Of a stretch of DNA of 64,000 bases, positions 9,149 through 48,184 are shown piece by piece. The stretch comes from Armatimonadota bacterium (GTDB lineage: Bacteria; Armatimonadota; UBA5829; JAUSEB01), in NCBI GenBank assembly GCA_030649165.1, contig JAUSGG010000096.1, positions 1-64,000 on the forward strand, read 5' to 3'. Both the position numbers and the translations under genes were made by a program. The notes below the pieces were generated by a model, which worked only from the letters and a program-made list of their open reading frames with translations, did no database searches and was not told where the DNA came from. How positions within the stretch are numbered: the first letter of the stretch is position 1; each line of letters begins with the position of its first letter.

Positions 9149-9345
9149 TTGGTGTTTCGGGAACTTGTTCCCGAAACGCGCTGCCTTCGGCCTTGAGACA
9201 AGACCGCCTTCACTGCTAGGACCGATTCCCCGCCAAACCCAGTAAACCCTCATAGGCTCCGCAGTCTGATTGTCCCCTGCACGTGCGCTGCAAACGCTCC
9301 CTGACGTTCGCCAGCAGGTAGCGCGCCCCTCTATGGCGAAGAATT
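9149..9345. repeat. dispersed repeat, copy 1 (with 11915-12095)
   Basis: It begins with a perfect hairpin whose 11-base arms are GTTTCGGGAAC and GTTCCCGAAAC (9154-9177), and continues with GCCTTCGGCCTTGAGACAAG and about 150 bases similar to 11915-12095. A short related piece stands at 20086-20130. It occupies the gap between the truncated membrane gene and the chimeric frame at 9461; the remainder of 8997-9460 shows nothing else. Confidence 0.65.
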
Positions 9346-9460
9346 CATAGATCGGTGTAGCAACAGAAGCTGACGGCTGACAACTGAAAGCTGACAGCTT
9401 CCTACTCCTTCCGGAACGAAGGAAGCTGCCGAAGCAAGCGTCCGGCGCTGGAGGGCAACA

Positions 9461-9916
9461 ATGGACATTCAAGACAAGGTAACTCTCATCACGGGCGCGT
9501 CGGAGGGCATCGGCCTCGCCACCGCGCGGCGGTTTGCCCGGGCCGGAGCGAAACTGGCGCTGGTGGCCCGCTCAATGGAGAAACTGACCGCGCTGGCGGA
9601 TGAACTGCGCGGGCGAGACGTCGAGGCGATTGCCGTACCCGCGGATTTGCGTGACCCGGCAAACGCGCTCAACGTAACCGGCTTCATCAAGCCGGGCGGC
9701 AACATCTTCGAGATCGAGCCTTACGCGCTTAAGCGGGTTCGGTTGCTGGTCTACCAGCCTTCGCTACTACTTGGAGACGATCCCAGCGACGATGCGTGTG
9801 GCCCATACTGGTCTTTTCTGCTTCCGCTTGTCCTTGAGGGCTCCACTATTGCTTACGATCAACACCATCGAGGCGCTGATAGCCCGCGTAGCCCGCCGGA
9901 TAGACGGCCACCGTGA
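9461..9916 (+). pseudogene. chimeric frame: short-chain dehydrogenase start fused to glycosidase tail
   Basis: Residues 1-69 are the beginning of a classical short-chain dehydrogenase, with the NAD(P)-binding TGASEGIG motif and the following Rossmann strand and helix. At about base 9665 the sequence switches to the jelly-roll tail seen at 7351-7575 (LNVTGFIKPGGNIFEIEPYA). The homologous stop codon TAG has become CAG, so the frame runs on into unrelated DNA that overlaps the end of the convergent GH30-like gene. The catalytic YxxxK of the dehydrogenase is missing, so this is a recombination product and not a working enzyme. Confidence 0.75.
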
Positions 9917-12177: not shown

Positions 12178-12963
12178 ATGCGGTTGGAACAGGTGGTAGT
12201 AGATAGTCTGACGGAGATAGAACCCGCCATAAAGGCGGCCAAGAAGGGCGCCGCGGCGGCAAGCGCATCCGGCAGAATGCTGGGTGATGGAGAGATCAAG
12301 AACTTGGGCAAGAAGCTCGCCGAAGCTGAAGAGGAATTGGCCCGCGCGGTGGAAGGGTTTCGCGCGTTCAGAGAGCAATGGGAGACGGTCGATGTCAGCG
12401 GCTACTTCGGCTCGGAAGACTATATTGGGGAGCTTTCCGCCGCCCTCGATGATTCCGGCGTAGACGCGCACAGACTCGCGGACGTGTTGTACGTCTATCC
12501 GGCGCTCGTCAGGTTGGACGCCGGCGCTCTCGCGGCCCGCATAGATAAGAAGATCGAAGCAAGGGTCAGGCCATCCACGCTGGCGAGGATTCTGAAGAAC
12601 ATCCAGAACCGCCCCAGCAGGTTCCCCGCAGGCAGGTTCCTCACCTCGCTCTTCAAAGTCTACAAGGCCCTTGGCGCTCGTAATCTCAGAAAAGGTGAGG
12701 AATGGGCGGGCAAGTCTATGTTCCTGAAGGACATTTACGAGATACTGTCCGCCGCTCCAGGCAGCGACTACACCGAGCAGGAGTTCGTGCGTGACATTTA
12801 TCTGCTGGACGCTTCCGGAGAAGCTCTGGAGGTCCGCGGCCACATCGCTTCACTGGAAGCAAGCAGCTCCACACGAGATGAGAGGAAAACCCTTTCGATC
12901 ATTACGCGGGACGGACAGAGAAGGCTCTACTCCTCCATCTGTTTCAACCCGGTGACGAGGTAA
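12178..12963 (+). CDS. coiled-coil protein opening the ATPase/SNF2 operon
   Basis: Its 261 residues include an early heptad-rich helix (GEIKNLGKKLAEAEEELARA, about 38-75) and a middle helical domain (about 75-190). The C-terminal part is short and beta-rich. No enzyme motif is visible and I do not recognise the family. AGGAG stands 9 bases before the ATG. It is the first gene of a tight plus-strand run (6-base gap to the next), so it is probably a structural or adaptor subunit of that system. GC content and codon use match the following two ATPase-like genes. Confidence 0.6.
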   Translation: MRLEQVVVDSLTEIEPAIKAAKKGAAAASASGRMLGDGEIKNLGKKLAEAEEELARAVEGFRAFREQWETVDVSGYFGSEDYIGELSAALDDSGVDAHRLADVLYVYPALVRLDAGALAARIDKKIEARVRPSTLARILKNIQNRPSRFPAGRFLTSLFKVYKALGARNLRKGEEWAGKSMFLKDIYEILSAAPGSDYTEQEFVRDIYLLDASGEALEVRGHIASLEASSSTRDERKTLSIITRDGQRRLYSSICFNPVTR

Positions 12964-12969
12964 CCGACA

Positions 12970-13956
12970 ATGGAATCAGCGTTGGGCGACTGGCTGGAAG
13001 CAGTAGATAAATACTACCTGAGCGACTTCGTCAATTCGGGTGGATCAGCGTTCAAGCTGCTGCTGGCACGGGACATTTCCGGCGTATCGACCGTTCTGGA
13101 GAAGGTGCGGTCTCTGGCGGAAGGCAGGGGCTATATCTACGTCCAAGTATCGGCCGCCGACACGCGTATCGACAGGATAGACCAACTCTTTTTCGCGGTA
13201 GCCAGGCAAATCGACTGGGATTCACTTGTAGCCAGGGACGCGGCGGACTTCCTTCGGCGCCGCGACTATGAGATTCCTGAAGGGGTGGCGACTAGCGATA
13301 CCGCGGCGATTGCCCAGGCAAACGATTGCGACGAAGAGGATTTGCTCAAAGAGATCCGCCGCGCCACGAGGCAGGAGATAGTCCAGGACAGGCGGATGTG
13401 CAAAGAGTTCAGGACGGCGGTCGCGCAGCTTCGCGGCGCTCAGTTCTTCCCCAGAAGCGTCACGCCCAGCGACACCGAAACGCTGAGCGGCTGGATGCGA
13501 GGCGCCAAAGTCAGCGCGGCGGCCCTGAGAGACCTTCGCATCTACTCGAAGATAGGACGTCACAACGCCAGGGAGATGCTGATCGCATTGGCGCACTGGC
13601 TGGCGACGTCGCTCGGCATGGGTCTGGTTATAGGATTGGACCTGAGCGCTCTTCTCCTGACGCGCCCATCGGCAACGGATGAGATTTCTGCTTCGCTCCA
13701 CTACAGCCGAAGCGCTCTCCTCGACGCATACGAGGTCATCAGACAGTTCATCGATGAGACCGACGATATTACACACTGCCTTATCTGCGCCGTCGCCCCG
13801 CCGGAGATCGAGACCGACGAGAAGAGGTCCGTGTTCAAGTATTACGCGCTGCAGAGCAGGCTTCTGAGCGAAGTCCACGATCTTGATCGCCAGGATTTGC
13901 TTGCCGCGATGGTGCGATTTGGCGATACGAACGCCGAAAAGAAGGACGGCATGTGA
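12970..13956 (+). CDS. degenerate P-loop ATPase-like protein, paired with the next gene
   Basis: The 328-residue protein has the outline of the DUF2791/BrxD-type ATPase next door but lacks its key residues. The place of the Walker A loop reads NSGGSAFKLLLAR instead of GxxGxGKS. The Walker B-like strand (GLVIGLDLSALLL) keeps one Asp and lacks the catalytic Glu. It therefore probably folds like an ATPase without hydrolysing ATP and may pair with the active subunit. Its TGA overlaps the ATG of the next gene by one base (TGATG), a sign of coupled translation and fixed stoichiometry. Kinship to DUF2791 is inferred from order and secondary-structure pattern. Confidence 0.55.
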   Translation: MESALGDWLEAVDKYYLSDFVNSGGSAFKLLLARDISGVSTVLEKVRSLAEGRGYIYVQVSAADTRIDRIDQLFFAVARQIDWDSLVARDAADFLRRRDYEIPEGVATSDTAAIAQANDCDEEDLLKEIRRATRQEIVQDRRMCKEFRTAVAQLRGAQFFPRSVTPSDTETLSGWMRGAKVSAAALRDLRIYSKIGRHNAREMLIALAHWLATSLGMGLVIGLDLSALLLTRPSATDEISASLHYSRSALLDAYEVIRQFIDETDDITHCLICAVAPPEIETDEKRSVFKYYALQSRLLSEVHDLDRQDLLAAMVRFGDTNAEKKDGM

Positions 13957-15215
13957 TGAGCAATGATTCGGTCCTTATGGCAAGGCGAGCAATAGAGGCG
14001 CTGCGCGCGGGAGTTCCTAATCGTGACGCGGTGCGACAGCTTCCCGTGTTCCAGGGAGATATAACCCAGAAGTTTACCGAGACATTGTGGGAGGTGCAAC
14101 AGGCCCCTGCAAACGATGTCACCCCCAGGTCGATGGCGGTTTCGGGGTCATTCGGTTCCGGGAAGAGCCACTTGCTGGCCTATCTGCGGCACGTGGCAAT
14201 AGAGCACAATTTCGTGTGCAGCCAGGTCGTGATAAGCAAGGAGACCCCGCTTTTCGATCCCCTGAAGCTCTTGCGGTCGGCGGTGGAGACGGCGACCGTT
14301 TCCGAGACCGCGGGACGCGCGGTTCCGGAGATACTGTTCGCCGGCAAGTTTGACCGAGACCGGTTCGCCGAACTCGTAAGGTGGGTATGCGAGCAGCCCG
14401 TGCTTGGGGACAGGATCACGCCGTTGCTGAGGATAATCGACGAGCGCCCCGCCGGCGGTGAAGAGTTCCTCGACGAGATCGCCTGGGAATGGTCCGGTTA
14501 CCCCATGAGGGTCAGCGCCATTCGCTCCGCGCTCAAGGAGATCGGCTGTCAGGCTGAGTATCGGGTGAAGACGATGCCGCGGCGCGAGCTTGGACTAAGC
14601 CTCTGGCGGTTCTTGCCTCGACTTTTCCAGGCTGCCGGGTATAGCGGATGGGTGACGCTGATCGACGAAGGCGAGTTGATGCTGCGTTACAGCAAGCTGC
14701 AGCGCGCGAAATCTTATGCGCAGGTGGCCAGGCTCACCGGGACCGCAAAGGACTTTAAGATATCCGGGTTCGTTCCGGTGTTTTCCGTTACGGATGACTT
14801 CTGGGCCACTGCCGAAGCTGAAAAGCGCGACAGCGAAATCCCGGAATGGCTTCGCGACCGAGGCAGGCCGGGAGACGCGGAACTCGCCCGCGACGCTGAA
14901 GCCGGCATGAAGTTCCTCAGACGCGCCAAACCGCTGCGCCCTGCCCGTGGGGAGGAGTTTACCGAACTCAGAGAACGGGTCCGTGACCTGCACTCGCTGG
15001 CATTCAACTGGAATGCGCCGCCGGCCCGCGAACGCGAGGCGCTCTCCTCGCGTTCCGTCAGGGAGCATGTGAAATCGTGGATAACCGAATGGGACCTTAT
15101 GCTTCTCTACCCCGACTACAGGCCGGAGGTCGTGATCGAGGACGTGAAGACGGACTACTCAGAGGATAAGGATCTTTCCCACGAGAACAGCGAAGCGGCG
15201 GAGGGGATGGAGTAA
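13956..15215 (+). CDS. BrxD/DUF2791-like P-loop ATPase
   Basis: ATG at 13956 (AAGGA 8 bases upstream) gives 419 residues. Walker A is GSFGSGKSH, with the Lys at about 70, and Walker B is GWVTLIDEGE at about 231-240, with the DE pair. A sensor-like strand (FVPVFSVTDDFW) follows and the C-terminus is charged and helical. This layout fits the DUF2791 family that includes BrxD of type 2 BREX and, as I recall, the ATPase of the Shango system. Such proteins are thought to remodel DNA-bound complexes. There is no PglZ, methyltransferase or BrxC neighbour here, so it is not a standard BREX locus. Its 3' end is duplicated at 16321-16352. Confidence 0.72.
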   Translation: MSNDSVLMARRAIEALRAGVPNRDAVRQLPVFQGDITQKFTETLWEVQQAPANDVTPRSMAVSGSFGSGKSHLLAYLRHVAIEHNFVCSQVVISKETPLFDPLKLLRSAVETATVSETAGRAVPEILFAGKFDRDRFAELVRWVCEQPVLGDRITPLLRIIDERPAGGEEFLDEIAWEWSGYPMRVSAIRSALKEIGCQAEYRVKTMPRRELGLSLWRFLPRLFQAAGYSGWVTLIDEGELMLRYSKLQRAKSYAQVARLTGTAKDFKISGFVPVFSVTDDFWATAEAEKRDSEIPEWLRDRGRPGDAELARDAEAGMKFLRRAKPLRPARGEEFTELRERVRDLHSLAFNWNAPPAREREALSSRSVREHVKSWITEWDLMLLYPDYRPEVVIEDVKTDYSEDKDLSHENSEAAEGME

Positions 15216-15226
15216 GAGCGTATAAT

Positions 15227-16264
15227 ATGGGAGACATCAAGGCATACAATACTAATATGATAGACGACGTCCGGAGTAAGCTTGCCACATTGCCGCAAGG
15301 CAGCAGGGTTCGGTGTGCTCTATCAGATCAGGAAATAGAGAAGATATCAAGAGCCGTAGAGTCGGAACGGATTGAAGATCTGCGAGGCCGGTCCTATCCA
15401 CCTCTTTTTGTACTCGTCCATAAGCTTGATGTTTCTCAGATCAACGATCTTGACAGCGACATAGAGCTTGTTCTTTCCAGAACCAAACCTAGAGACGCCG
15501 GTCCTCTGCTCCTCAAGCAACTGCTGGAAGACCGCAAATATCGAGCTGGCATATTTGAGATCTACGCAAAGTCTCAGCTATTGAAAGCAGACGAGACGAG
15601 CGTCGAGTTGGATTCCCCCCTTCCCAATGGATGTAACGCAGACATGCGTCTCAGCCTTGGAGGGCGTGAATTCTACCTGGAGTGCACGATACTTTCAGAA
15701 TCCAATGAGGATCGGAAGCGGCTCGAGGAACTCATCGAAGCGAAGAAAAGTAATCCGTCCGCCAGCCAAAGCTGGATGGGCAGCTTTTTGTACGACGCCA
15801 TTCGCCTTTATTACAAGGTATACGACAAGTTGGCAAGGAATTGGAACCCAAAGAAGAGCCAGCTAAGCGACGCGCATCCGAGTGTTCTTGTGATCTCTTT
15901 ATTCGTTGGAAACGGGTCAGTGTCAGCGGAAAGTCCGGGAACTCGCTTCGCTTTGGAGACGCTCTTTTCAGAGAGTTTAGGCAATCCTGAAGAAGAACAG
16001 TCCCAGCCGCCGGAGAACGCGTCCTTGCGCGGGTGGTTGCATGATGCGTGTATACATGGCCGGAACCCTCTTACGGAGAATGAGTACAAGACAAGGTACT
16101 TAGACTTGCTCAGCTCCCGAAAGAAGATCAGTGGTATCCTGCTTTTCCAGGATTGTGAGTTGAAGGAATCGAGAGTCAATTACTCCGCAAATCATCGGAT
16201 AACTCACGGCGAAATGGCGAGATTGGAAGAGTTGTTCGCATCCTCGCCTCGTTGGTGGCCGTAG
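15227..16264 (+). CDS. nuclease-like protein (PD-(D/E)xK-type pattern), probable cargo gene
   Basis: The 345-residue protein has a pattern seen in restriction-endonuclease-like folds. A helix carries Glu 111 (FEIYAKSQLL), then comes NADMRLSLGG with Asp 139 and a strand FYLECTI with Glu 152, in which the usual Lys is replaced by Thr. Around it are helical segments of unknown function. GC content is visibly lower than in the ATPase and SNF2 genes, and a second copy of the upstream gene's last 24 bases lies just after it, so it looks inserted. The ATG at 15227 has only a distant GGAG; an ATG at 15257 is possible. Nuclease activity is a prediction. Confidence 0.45.
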   Translation: MGDIKAYNTNMIDDVRSKLATLPQGSRVRCALSDQEIEKISRAVESERIEDLRGRSYPPLFVLVHKLDVSQINDLDSDIELVLSRTKPRDAGPLLLKQLLEDRKYRAGIFEIYAKSQLLKADETSVELDSPLPNGCNADMRLSLGGREFYLECTILSESNEDRKRLEELIEAKKSNPSASQSWMGSFLYDAIRLYYKVYDKLARNWNPKKSQLSDAHPSVLVISLFVGNGSVSAESPGTRFALETLFSESLGNPEEEQSQPPENASLRGWLHDACIHGRNPLTENEYKTRYLDLLSSRKKISGILLFQDCELKESRVNYSANHRITHGEMARLEELFASSPRWWP

Positions 16265-16320
16265 CCCGGCACATAGAGGACACTTCTTGGTATGCCGCCA
16301 GAATGGCCACTCTAGTGCCA

Positions 16321-16352
16321 CAGCAGAGAAGCGGCTGAGAGGATGGAGTAAC
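16321..16352 (+). repeat. duplicate of the 3' end of the ATPase gene
   Basis: GAAGCGGC(T)GAG(A)GGATGGAGTAA here matches 15191-15214 at 22 of 24 positions, including the stop codon. The two copies flank the low-GC nuclease-like gene, as expected if that gene was inserted by recombination. The remaining bases to 16429 hold a possible -10 (TATAAC at 16384-16389) for the Phd gene. Confidence 0.6.
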
Positions 16353-16429
16353 CTCCGGAGCGGTGACAAAAGCTAGAGCATGGTATAACACACGGGAAAC
16401 CTGTGGGTGTCCACCCGGAGGTCTTGACG

Positions 16430-16699
16430 ATGGTTACGGTTTCATCCGAAGAAGTCAGAGACGGACTGGGAGAACTCATCAATCGGGTCGCCTATGGCGG
16501 CGAGAGGGTCATGGTGACCAGGCGGGGCAAGAAGATCGTCGGCATCATATCGGCGGAGGAACTGGAACTGCTGGAAGAGGTGTTGGATGCCATCGAGGAT
16601 GAAATTGATATACCGCTTATCAAGGAGCGGATGGCTGAGATAGAGCGGGGAGAGTCTGTTACTCTGGAACAGCTCGAGCGCGAAGTCCGTGATCAGTAG
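16430..16699 (+). CDS. Phd/YefM-type antitoxin without a neighbouring toxin
   Basis: ATG 16430 is chosen over an upstream GTG because GGAGG stands 8 bases before it. The 89-residue product has the Phd/YefM N-terminal fold (VSSEEVRDGLGELINRVAYG, then GERVMVTRRGKKIVGIISAE), which binds operator DNA, and an acidic C-terminal tail that would wrap a toxin. No RelE, ParE or Doc gene follows; instead a palindromic element and the 168-residue gene do. It may regulate the surrounding operon or be the remnant of a toxin-antitoxin pair. Confidence 0.85.
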   Translation: MVTVSSEEVRDGLGELINRVAYGGERVMVTRRGKKIVGIISAEELELLEEVLDAIEDEIDIPLIKERMAEIERGESVTLEQLEREVRDQ

Positions 16700-16717
16700 C
16701 CCCGAAGCAGGTATTAG

Positions 16718-16860
16718 CAACAGTTCAGGGTTGGGGAGAACGTCATTCCGAACGAAGATAGGAATCTGCTTTTCCAAGCAGCTCTAAAGCAGATTTCTCG
16801 TCGTTCCTCCTCGAAATGACGTACTGCGGAGCGATGTACTCACTATTCGTGAACTGTTAC
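16718..16860. repeat. nested palindromic element E (outer + middle only)
   Basis: Outer arms AACAGTTCA and TGAACTGTT enclose the middle inverted repeat (CGTCATTCCGA ... TCGAAATGACG, with AATCTGCTTTT against AAAGCAGATTT). The inner hairpin of elements A-D is absent. It sits inside the putative operon, 13 bases before the next gene. Confidence 0.8.
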
Positions 16861-16872
16861 AGGTATTAGGAT

Positions 16873-17379
16873 ATGCCCATACCCTTCCAAGATCAGAACA
16901 CCGTCTCCACCGGCACGGCAGGCTATCTGAAGTTTCTGACGCCTGCCGCGAAGGGCGTGTGGCTTGGGGCGCTGTTCATCATGAATGATCGGGGGGAACC
17001 GGTTGAGTTCACACACGCCCGCGTCTCTTCTCCAAAACCCCTGCTGTGGAGGCCGAACGATCTCCGAATGCGCTGCATCGAGTCGCTTTGCGCTTCCATG
17101 TTCGACGTTTGCCCCGTTGTCCCCGATCTGCTCCTCTGTCTGTCAGAAGAGGGCGACTTGCGTTCTCTTGCCGAGAGCATTAGCTTGAGAGTTCCGGTTG
17201 GCCGGATCACTCACGATGGCTCCGGTGGCGACGTCTCCACCCGGTGGAGCATGGATTTCGCTCCCCATTCGCCTCCCGCCCGGATACACAAGCGTCTTTG
17301 CGAGCGCGGGCTGCTCGTGGAGCCGTTCGAGCGAGCCGAAGCCGGCCTGCGCGAGGTCTACTCGGAGTTGCTGCGTTAA
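16873..17379 (+). CDS. unrecognised 168-residue protein coupled to the SNF2 gene
   Basis: The protein opens with GTAGYLKFLTPAAKGVWLGA and continues FIMNDRGEPVEFTHARV, a compact beta-rich start, followed by alternating helices and strands. I do not recognise a named family and see no catalytic signature. Its stop TAA overlaps the ATG of the SNF2 gene (TAATG at 17377-17381), so the two are surely co-translated, and a direct partnership with the helicase is likely. It could be a specificity or adaptor subunit. Confidence 0.6.
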   Translation: MPIPFQDQNTVSTGTAGYLKFLTPAAKGVWLGALFIMNDRGEPVEFTHARVSSPKPLLWRPNDLRMRCIESLCASMFDVCPVVPDLLLCLSEEGDLRSLAESISLRVPVGRITHDGSGGDVSTRWSMDFAPHSPPARIHKRLCERGLLVEPFERAEAGLREVYSELLR

Positions 17380-19499
17380 TGGCTCGATTCAAGCGCCGGA
17401 AGAATGTAGGAGGAGATTCCGGTCGCCGATTCCTTGCACGGAGTGTCGGGGTTCGGAAACCCCTCCTACGTAAGCTCAGACTCCATCCTCCCCTCAATCC
17501 CGCCCCAGCAAGCGGAGATTTGCGTCTGACTCCTGTAACCGGGACGCTCGACCTCACCCCGCGCAAGCCGGTTGTTGTTCACTCGGGAACGGTCTCCATG
17601 AGGGAATACGCGCTCGATGGTCGGGATTGGGAGCCGGCGCCTCCCGCGTGGCGGCCGCCGGCCGACGCATCAGGCTTCGGCCACTCCAACGAGGGCGGTA
17701 CGGTCGCGCGGGGCTTGCCGCTTTCTCGGATTCTGGCGCTGCTGCTTCAACCTCCACTTTCGGTTTGGATGTCCAGCGAAGGTCCGCTCTGCTGGCAACG
17801 TGAACTGCTCGGCTTTCAAAAGGTCGGCGTGGCGGCGCTGATCGAACACACGTCCATGCTCCTGGCGGACGACATGGGCCTTGGTAAGACGATTCAAGCC
17901 GTTGCGGCCATGCGACTGCTGGTACGCCGCGCGGAAGCGGAACGGATACTTGTGGTGGCGCCGGCGGCGGTTACCAGAAACTGGCGCGAGGAACTGAGGA
18001 CGTGGGCTCCCGAATTACGGACCATCGAGGTGACGGGAACGGCGGCTCAGCGCGTTTGGAAGTGGGACGCCAGAGTCCACGTCAAGATAGTCAGCTACGA
18101 AACCCTTAGGTCGGACTCACAGCGCGCGATAAAGAGGCACGGGGAGTGGGATATTGTTTGTCTGGACGAAGCCCAGCGCATAAAGAACAGCGAATCCGCG
18201 ATCAGCGGCGTAGTCAAAAGCATCAAGTGTCGACGCCGCTGGGCGCTCACGGGGACGCCGCTGGAGAACAGCCTGGATGATGTTCGCTCTATCCTCTCGT
18301 TCCTGCAGCCGGGGGAAATGGAAGCAAGGAGAGGCGGCGACCTCGACGTAAATGCTCTCGGATCGGCGCTGCGCCGGGTCCAACTGCGCCGCAAGAAGTC
18401 GGAAGCGCTGCCGGACTTGCCGCCGAAAACTATCAAGGAAGTATTCGTGCCGTTGACCGGGCGGCAGCGCGATGAGTATGATGCGTTGATCGGAAAAGGC
18501 GTGGAAGAGCTTCGCGGGAAGGGCTCGGACGCTACCGTGACGGATGTGCTCGCCCTGATCACGCGGCTGAAGCAGGTCTGCAATTTTTCCCTGGCGAGTG
18601 GTCGATCTTCCAAGCTGGATGACATGGCCCCCAGGCTTGCCGTGCTCCGGGATGAAGGACACAAGGCCCTCATATTTTCCCAGTTCACGAATGAATCCTA
18701 CGGCGTGCGGCGCATTGCCAGGGCTTTGGAGGAGTTCCGCCCAGTCATCTATACTGGCGACATGACCGCCGAACAGCGCAGACAAGCGCTGGATGCGTTC
18801 CGATCCGACCCGGAGGCCGCGGCGCTCATCCTTTCGCTCAAGGCGGGCGGTGTGGGGCTCAACCTTCAAGCCGCGTCGTACGTCTTTCATTTCGACCGAT
18901 GGTGGAATCCGGCGAGTGAAGCCCAGGCCGAGGACAGATCTCACAGGATCGGGCAGACGAGGGGCGTAAGCGTCTACAAGTACATCTGCGAAGATACCAT
19001 CGAAGAGCGTATTCACGAGATACTGCTCGCAAAACGCGCCCTGTTTGCCGAACACGTGGACGATGTCTGCCTTGACCTCGGACAACGCCTCAGCGATGAT
19101 GATCTTTTCGGCTTGTTCGGCCTGCGGCCGCCGCCGTCACGGGCGGGACAATTACCTAAGCGCGAGGATGACGCGCCGGCGGTCACGGACGTGGAAGCAA
19201 TGGTGCGGATGAGGCTGGCCGAAGAAGGCTACAATGTGGAAGTTCGTGCCGAGGCCGCCGAAGACGTTATCGACCTGGTGGCGGTTAGAACGGACGAACT
19301 GGGAATGGAAACAGCCCTGATGGTTCGCTGCGTTGCGCGGTCAGGCCCGGCGGACGCTGGAGTCATCGAGGATCTCAGCGACTTGCTGCCCGTCGAGCAG
19401 ACCTCAGTCCGCGGGATGGTAGCATGTTCGGCGGGGTTCACCGACAGCGCGGCCCGACTCGCACGGAGACATCACATCTCGTTGTGGACGCCAGAATGA
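17379..19499 (+). CDS. SNF2-family ATPase with C-terminal Mrr-like domain
   Basis: The 706-residue protein has a full SNF2 motor. Motif I is ADDMGLGKT (Lys 170), motif II DEAQ (263-266) and motif III TGTPLEN (291-297). In the second lobe GDMTAEQRR, LSLKAGGVGLNL and the motif VI region AEDRSHRIGQ are present. From about residue 605 a small domain follows with IDLVAV, a strand LMVRCVA and GMVACSAGFTDSAARLARRH. This is the order seen in Mrr-type restriction domains, but the catalytic (Q/E)xK is replaced by RxV. The start at 17379 overlaps the previous stop; an upstream in-frame ATG lies inside that gene. It probably translocates on DNA as the motor of the 12.2-19.5 kb system. Confidence 0.88.
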   Translation: MARFKRRKNVGGDSGRRFLARSVGVRKPLLRKLRLHPPLNPAPASGDLRLTPVTGTLDLTPRKPVVVHSGTVSMREYALDGRDWEPAPPAWRPPADASGFGHSNEGGTVARGLPLSRILALLLQPPLSVWMSSEGPLCWQRELLGFQKVGVAALIEHTSMLLADDMGLGKTIQAVAAMRLLVRRAEAERILVVAPAAVTRNWREELRTWAPELRTIEVTGTAAQRVWKWDARVHVKIVSYETLRSDSQRAIKRHGEWDIVCLDEAQRIKNSESAISGVVKSIKCRRRWALTGTPLENSLDDVRSILSFLQPGEMEARRGGDLDVNALGSALRRVQLRRKKSEALPDLPPKTIKEVFVPLTGRQRDEYDALIGKGVEELRGKGSDATVTDVLALITRLKQVCNFSLASGRSSKLDDMAPRLAVLRDEGHKALIFSQFTNESYGVRRIARALEEFRPVIYTGDMTAEQRRQALDAFRSDPEAAALILSLKAGGVGLNLQAASYVFHFDRWWNPASEAQAEDRSHRIGQTRGVSVYKYICEDTIEERIHEILLAKRALFAEHVDDVCLDLGQRLSDDDLFGLFGLRPPPSRAGQLPKREDDAPAVTDVEAMVRMRLAEEGYNVEVRAEAAEDVIDLVAVRTDELGMETALMVRCVARSGPADAGVIEDLSDLLPVEQTSVRGMVACSAGFTDSAARLARRHHISLWTPE

Positions 19500-47925: not shown

Positions 47926-48184
47926 ACTCTCTCGGACCGCGAACAGTTTTCTCACGACCAGACAACCGAATCATCAGCGGCGGATAGCGGCCCGCATTCA
48001 GACTTTGCGCGCCGATCCGTCGCCCACCGACTCCATTGCTCTCAAAGGCGCGGGCCAGCCGTTCAAACGGGCCGACATCGGCGAATACCGGATCATCTAC
48101 AGGGTTGAGGCTGACACGTTATTCGTTGCGGCCATCGGCAAGCGGAACGATGCTGAAGTGTACCGGAGGTTCAGGAAGAAATAG
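47912..48184 (+). CDS. RelE/ParE-family toxin
   Basis: The 90-residue basic protein has the RelE/ParE fold: a helix pair ending RRIAARIQTLRADP, then DSIALKGAGQPFKRADIGEY, RIIYRVEADTLFVAAIGKRN, and a basic end (RRFRKK). It is translated from an ATG inside the antitoxin's last codons, the standard coupling. RelE-type members cut mRNA on the ribosome and ParE-type ones poison gyrase; the sequence alone does not decide between them. Confidence 0.88.
   Translation: MLRLRLSRTANSFLTTRQPNHQRRIAARIQTLRADPSPTDSIALKGAGQPFKRADIGEYRIIYRVEADTLFVAAIGKRNDAEVYRRFRKK

Follow-up and report, generated by a model that had tools for sequence, protein, structure and literature searches.

An ORFan gene flanked by a duplicated ATPase gene end is inserted into a conserved, defence-like five-gene operon of an Armatimonadota bacterium

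The locus lies on contig JAUSGG010000096.1 of an Armatimonadota bacterium (assembly GCA_030649165.1) and was analysed within a stretch of 64,000 nt, hereafter the window (positions 1 to 64,000, forward strand). Five core genes of a conserved operon lie here in their usual order, and a block containing an ORFan gene, an orphan YefM antitoxin, and a MITE separates the third from the fourth. The features are as follows.

12178–12963, + strand: core gene 1 (w261), with an N-terminal helical hairpin and a C-terminal winged-helix-like part
12970–13956, + strand: core gene 2, BrxC/BrxD-like ATPase 1 (PF10923, 6e-10; PADLOC BrxD, 1.1e-10)
13953–15215, + strand: core gene 3, BrxC/BrxD-like ATPase 2 (PF10923, 1.8e-18; PADLOC BrxD, 9e-14, and SngB, 2.9e-9)
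15188–15215, + strand: upstream repeat copy, the ATPase 2 C-terminus plus stop (gapped extension from 15179)
15216–16872, + strand: inserted block, missing from 32 of 34 homologous operons
15227–16264, + strand: cargo gene, an ORFan of 345 aa, possibly a PD-(D/E)XK-like protein (by eye only)
16324–16351, + strand: downstream repeat copy (gapped extension from 16318)
16381–16429, + strand: yefM upstream region, common to the closest relative G005, ATGGTATAA ... CACGGGAA ... CGGAGGTC
16430–16699, + strand: YefM/Phd-family antitoxin with no adjoining toxin gene (PF02604, 4.9e-11)
16718–16860, + strand: MITE-like element of 143 nt with terminal inverted repeats (a copy on contig 130 is identical at 142 of 143 positions)
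16873–17379, + strand: core gene 4 (s168), without a family, occurring in 34 operons
17379–19499, + strand: core gene 5, SNF2 helicase with a C-terminal Mrr domain (PF00176, 5.6e-50; PF04471, 6e-9)

The host operon is widespread. Profile searches found the order w261, ATPase 1, ATPase 2, s168, and SNF2 helicase, the last sometimes carrying an Mrr nuclease domain, in Chloroflexota, Myxococcota, Nitrospirota, Gemmatimonadota, Actinomycetota, Verrucomicrobiota, and others. The profiles were built from seven or fewer seeds, and one search took the best 80 of 214 relatives. After duplicates were removed (L018, L023, L027, and L038, equal to L012, L013, L014, and L112, respectively), 96 distinct loci were examined, the window included. 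In 34 of these s168 follows the ATPase; in the remainder SNF2 occurs without s168, the genes differ in order or kind, or the contig ends. Some variation within the family was also observed. Three Nitrospirota loci (L034, L035, and L039) have a variant architecture with two long BrxD-like ATPases of ~690–795 aa in tandem. The s168 of L091 (~9302–9850) shares only 46% identity with its L047 counterpart, compared with 71–78% for the other four operon genes, which suggests a putative single-gene replacement.

Matches of the core genes to known families pointed towards defence systems. Both ATPases match the BrxC/BrxD family that includes BrxD of Type 2 BREX (NF033438, PF10923), with PF10923 scores of 39 and 67 bits, above the cut-off of 22.2; they did not reach the BrxD equivalog (NF033438; cut-off 350 bits, scores 41.1 and 52.2). 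Unlike Type 2 BREX BrxD, the window has two tandem ATPases and an SNF2-type helicase, and no match to PglX, PglZ, or DUF499 was found among the Pfam, PADLOC, and NCBIfam matches listed for the seven genes between 12178 and 19499. SngB is the ATPase of Shango (SngABC), of which SngA is TerB-like. ATPase 2 matches PADLOC SngB over residues 11–283, with BrxD scoring higher, and ATPase 1 matches it weakly (3e-5). As in Shango, a helicase follows the ATPase in the window operon, and neither SngA nor SngC was among the PADLOC matches listed for the seven genes (for the helicase, 25 of 45). The helicase matched PADLOC SNF2 models of the ZorD, DpdE, and DrmD type. For w261, no Pfam family was matched by more than one member and no PADLOC model by more than one of 28 members, with SngA not among the matches. 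Its structure model is of high confidence (pLDDT 93.8); comparison with PDB folds gave no significant match, only weak winged-helix ones, and a second look gave a best Z of 9.2 to ESCRT-III helices over 72 residues, with winged-helix proteins at 5–6. Because the PADLOC matches are to BrxD/SngB on one side and ZorD/DpdE/DrmD-type models on the other, the operon is defence-like, yet no catalogued system matches it in full, and it looks like a defence system not yet catalogued. We infer this function from the BrxD-type ATPases and the SNF2/Mrr helicase. In the open-licence literature, we found no description of the five-gene operon or of a toxin-antitoxin slot within it.

The junction between ATPase 2 and s168 is closed in nearly all homologous operons. 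No insert was present in 32 of the 34, and s168 begins −19 to +30 nt from the ATPase 2 stop in 30; in L047 and L122 the ATPase gene is frame-broken, and its last fragment ends ~20 nt before s168. The junction is open only in the window (1.66 kb) and in its closest relative, G005 (2.2 kb), and in both genomes the block genes differ in composition from the core genes (GC3 of 52–64 compared with 69–78). G005 belongs to the same taxonomic order as the window genome, and its ATPase 2 is 76% identical. Its block pairs a Phd antitoxin with a PIN toxin and YefM with a ParE-family toxin; it also encodes a HicB-like antitoxin and a 79-aa protein that matches no family, and one stretch of it has no recognisable genes. 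Since 32 of the 34 operons are closed and G005 is differently filled, the gene downstream of ATPase 2 is inserted cargo and the site is variably loaded. The preliminary description had proposed such an insertion of an accessory gene into a conserved operon and had anticipated that other genomes may hold different cargo, and the comparison agrees on both points. The empty form it predicted, with the ATPase followed by sequence like that from 16353 onward, was not the one found: in the actual empty form s168 follows the ATPase directly, and no locus with YefM directly after the ATPase was seen among the operons examined. Its view of the position as a swap site gains one supporting comparison, that with G005, but only two genomes hold any cargo; these two suggest that accessory genes get swapped at the ATPase 2–s168 junction.

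The cargo gene has a GC content of 50.2% (GC3 57), compared with 58–61% (GC3 69–74) in the core genes, a difference in the direction noted earlier. Its start codon lies 11 nt after the ATPase stop, and its frame of 345 codons is intact. The protein had no match in Pfam, PADLOC, NCBIfam, PHROGs, or PDB sequences. Only the gene itself was recovered from 291 genomes of the phylum, from 100 relatives plus its own genome, from the ORFs of the examined operon loci, and, with peptide patterns, from genome contigs and viral contigs; plasmids and phages gave no homologue. A search of the 30 operon-carrying genomes and 400 genomes of the phylum of G292 was also empty, an answer that shows nothing, as the search had no positive control. 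With the gene in no other genome examined, there was no set of operons that always contain it without a flanking duplication. A single-sequence AlphaFold model (mean pLDDT 33.9) was too poor for a fold search. The catalytic motif of PD-(D/E)XK enzymes is D ... (E/Q)xK, and by eye the arrangement D139 ... E152-C-T appears reminiscent of these enzymes, although the lysine expected of them is absent from its position. The earlier label "nuclease-like" was not confirmed, as no search gave a family match; "nuclease" and "effector" are, for this gene, motif-level guesses.

The rest of the block connects the two filled junctions. YefM is common to both, with 82%–83% protein identity between the window and G005 in local alignment (80.7% in global alignment), and the yefM upstream region is homologous as well. 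The ParE/RelE protein of G005, used as a query against the window, found nothing beside yefM and only a distant match at 47981–48163. By Pfam, the neighbouring cargo genes are members of type II toxin-antitoxin modules (YefM-RelE/ParE, VapBC, HicAB). Unlike such modules, the window YefM has no toxin gene, and the G005 HicB-like gene has no recognised HicA. Each of the two MITE copies has its own target duplication of ~9–10 nt; because the MITE flanks carry matching target duplications, the contig is not falsely joined at this point. About 50 partial matches to the MITE (16718–16860) were seen in the genome. A promoter scan of the block found no plus-strand promoter-like site exceeding shuffled sequence.

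The cargo gene is flanked by a direct repeat of the 3' end of the ATPase 2 gene. Sequence comparison gave two ungapped copies, 15188–15215 and 16324–16351, identical at 25 of 28 bases; a gapped extension reaches 15179–15215 and 16318–16351 with two small gaps (3 nt in total). The 24-nt core is 15192–15215, ending with the ATPase gene at 15215, and 16328–16351. The preliminary description had seen the tail recur after the next gene and had placed it at 16329–16352, one base too high. Both copies end in the shared bases GGATGGAGTAA. Within the whole 5.48-Mb genome there are exactly two copies at ≤3 mismatches, and none is expected at 3 mismatches in shuffled window sequence. Repeats of such length are not unique within the 64-kb window, where 26 clustered 28-mer pairs with at least 24 of 28 matches and a spacing of 100–3000 nt were counted, the ATPase-tail pair included. 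A few tandem or duplicated stretches account for most of these pairs; yet the ATPase-tail repeat is not due to chance. Translated by hand, the downstream copy would read HSREAAERME-stop, compared with HENSEAAEGME-stop upstream, so that the three substitutions and the 3 nt of gaps keep the overall frame. This pattern of differences is as expected of a diverged gene-end copy rather than of a fresh target-site duplication. Because the in-frame reading resembles the present gene end and the gaps are frame-keeping, the downstream copy is probably an old ATPase end. The ATPase tail sequence is not conserved even between the window and G005.

Downstream of the block, the window operon differs from that of G005 more than the upstream half does. 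The s168 and SNF2 proteins are 50%–52% and 58%–60% identical, respectively, compared with 66%–76% in the 5' half, and the 3'/5' distance ratio stands out (z 5.9) when all pairs of 30 operons are compared. Branch lengths from a FastTree tree place the extra length mostly on the window branch (0.68 compared with 0.37), and synonymous sites are saturated in both halves (35%–45% identical at four-fold sites). On these two grounds, we rejected a module swap as the explanation of the divergent 3' half, and we read the pattern as probable faster evolution of s168 and SNF2 in the window, with no proof of recombination. Over its first 120 aligned residues, the SNF2 protein is only 25%–32% identical to that of G005. 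Its first codons also hold a palindromic stretch, seen by eye, at 17402–17475 (GTAGGAGG ... CCTCCTAC), possibly a repeat element that has become part of the coding sequence.

The Mrr domain of the window helicase has a degenerate catalytic motif. Mrr-type enzymes carry the motif D-G-G-[IVL]-D ... Q-C-K, whose residues are catalytic. We aligned 41 SNF2 proteins, a set that excluded hits below 400 bits, such as L026 (broken into pieces), L049, L065, L080, and L081. An Mrr domain was present in 18, and 23 showed none, among them L015, which is cut by a contig end. QCK was kept in 16 of the 18 Mrr-bearing homologues and changed in L063 (RCEN) and the window (RCVA), where EDVID ... RCVA replaces DGGID ... 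QCKN. The window domain scored 36.5 bits, compared with 82.6 bits in G005, and judging by the motif the window nuclease has lost its catalytic lysine. Among the genes next downstream at the 41 SNF2 loci, we saw, by eye, no recurrent nuclease. Because 23 of the 41 proteins are without Mrr and no such nuclease recurs, the operon may not require a nuclease.

We considered several explanations of the insertion and its repeat. That the second copy arose by chance, or by functional convergence on a purine-rich, ribosome-binding-like sequence, is exceedingly improbable: purines dominate both copies and a start codon follows closely on the upstream one, but the best 28-mer match between the two flanks (25 of 28) compares with a maximum of 19 in 300 dinucleotide shuffles, and the 5.48 Mb held no further copy. 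Site-specific integration at the ATPase 3' end, by which an element carrying the ORFan regenerated the gene end and left attL/attR-like repeats, with the integrase acting in trans or since lost, would account for the position of the repeat at the exact end of the gene, stop codon included, as is usual for gene-end attachment sites, and for the presence of just two copies in the genome. We nevertheless regard it as distinctly unlikely. No ORF of the 1.66-kb block matches an integrase, the copies are set apart by 3 mismatches in 28 positions and by 3 nt of gaps, and a tail that is not conserved even in G005 is an unlikely attachment target.

A reading in which the junction is a neutral gap collecting mobile genes, the ORFan and antitoxins being unrelated to operon function, deserves more weight, although we hold it to be somewhat unlikely. 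It would be in keeping with the antitoxin without a toxin and the fresh MITE in the window, the orphan HicB-like antitoxin and geneless stretch in G005, and the fast evolution of s168 and SNF2 in the window genome. However, an intact ORFan frame of 345 codons begins 11 nt past the ATPase stop, and the core genes further downstream still have open frames, which speaks against simple destruction of the operon. The absence of the catalytic lysine from the window Mrr domain also makes effector replacement possible: in this lineage, Mrr would have lost its active site, and the unrelated ORFan protein, encoded behind the ATPase at a docking position, would have taken over as effector. This seems unlikely to us. 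In G005, where the Mrr domain is intact, the same junction is loaded with toxins (PIN and ParE); if the reading is true, the operon would serve as a sensor chassis into whose slot different effectors can be fitted.

The history that we favour, and think rather probable, is one of successive landings at a single junction, and from the arrangement of the block we infer the following order. In the lineage of the window genome and G005, the ATPase 2–s168 junction would have turned into an entry point for foreign genes. The first to arrive was probably a YefM(-ParE) toxin-antitoxin module, found there in both genomes. In a second event, in the window genome, the ORFan would have been placed between ATPase 2 and yefM. 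The 28–37-nt tail copy upstream of yefM would then be a remnant of the ATPase 3' end that formerly adjoined yefM, left when a fragment ending in ATPase tail and ORFan recombined in. The scar event most likely occurred in the window lineage, because G005 has no tail copy. Subsequently, the toxin partner of YefM would have been lost, and the MITE would have jumped in just before s168. An intermediate state, with the ATPase tail directly upstream of yefM, was found in no genome. The short-homology recombination proposed in the preliminary description fits the duplicated tail, but no comparable flanking duplication of the ATPase tail was found around the G005 block, so that a mechanism common to both insertions is only a possibility. 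The cargo gene follows the ATPase stop by 11 nt, and the purine-rich tail upstream occupies the position of a ribosome-binding site, so co-expression of the gene with the operon is probable. We predict that the protein most likely serves the system as an accessory effector.

Many reports describe accessory genes within defence operons, but how such genes enter can usually not be seen. PMC12839542 deals with auxiliary nucleases that lie inside BREX and BREX-related loci, including PIN and PD-(D/E)XK enzymes. Those auxiliary or backup nucleases and the window have in common an extra gene inside a conserved ATPase/helicase defence operon, and the window case is of that kind. Compared with the nucleases described there, the window cargo is an ORFan to which no nuclease fold is assigned; both the insertion scar and an alternative toxin-antitoxin cargo are visible at base level. 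At this junction, an unfilled form, two forms with different fillings, and a scar allow a base-by-base comparison. The five-gene operon, with two families that lack a Pfam entry, seems worth testing as a defence system, and with the helicase nuclease decayed in a filled operon, effector exchange becomes directly testable in an ATPase-helicase system.
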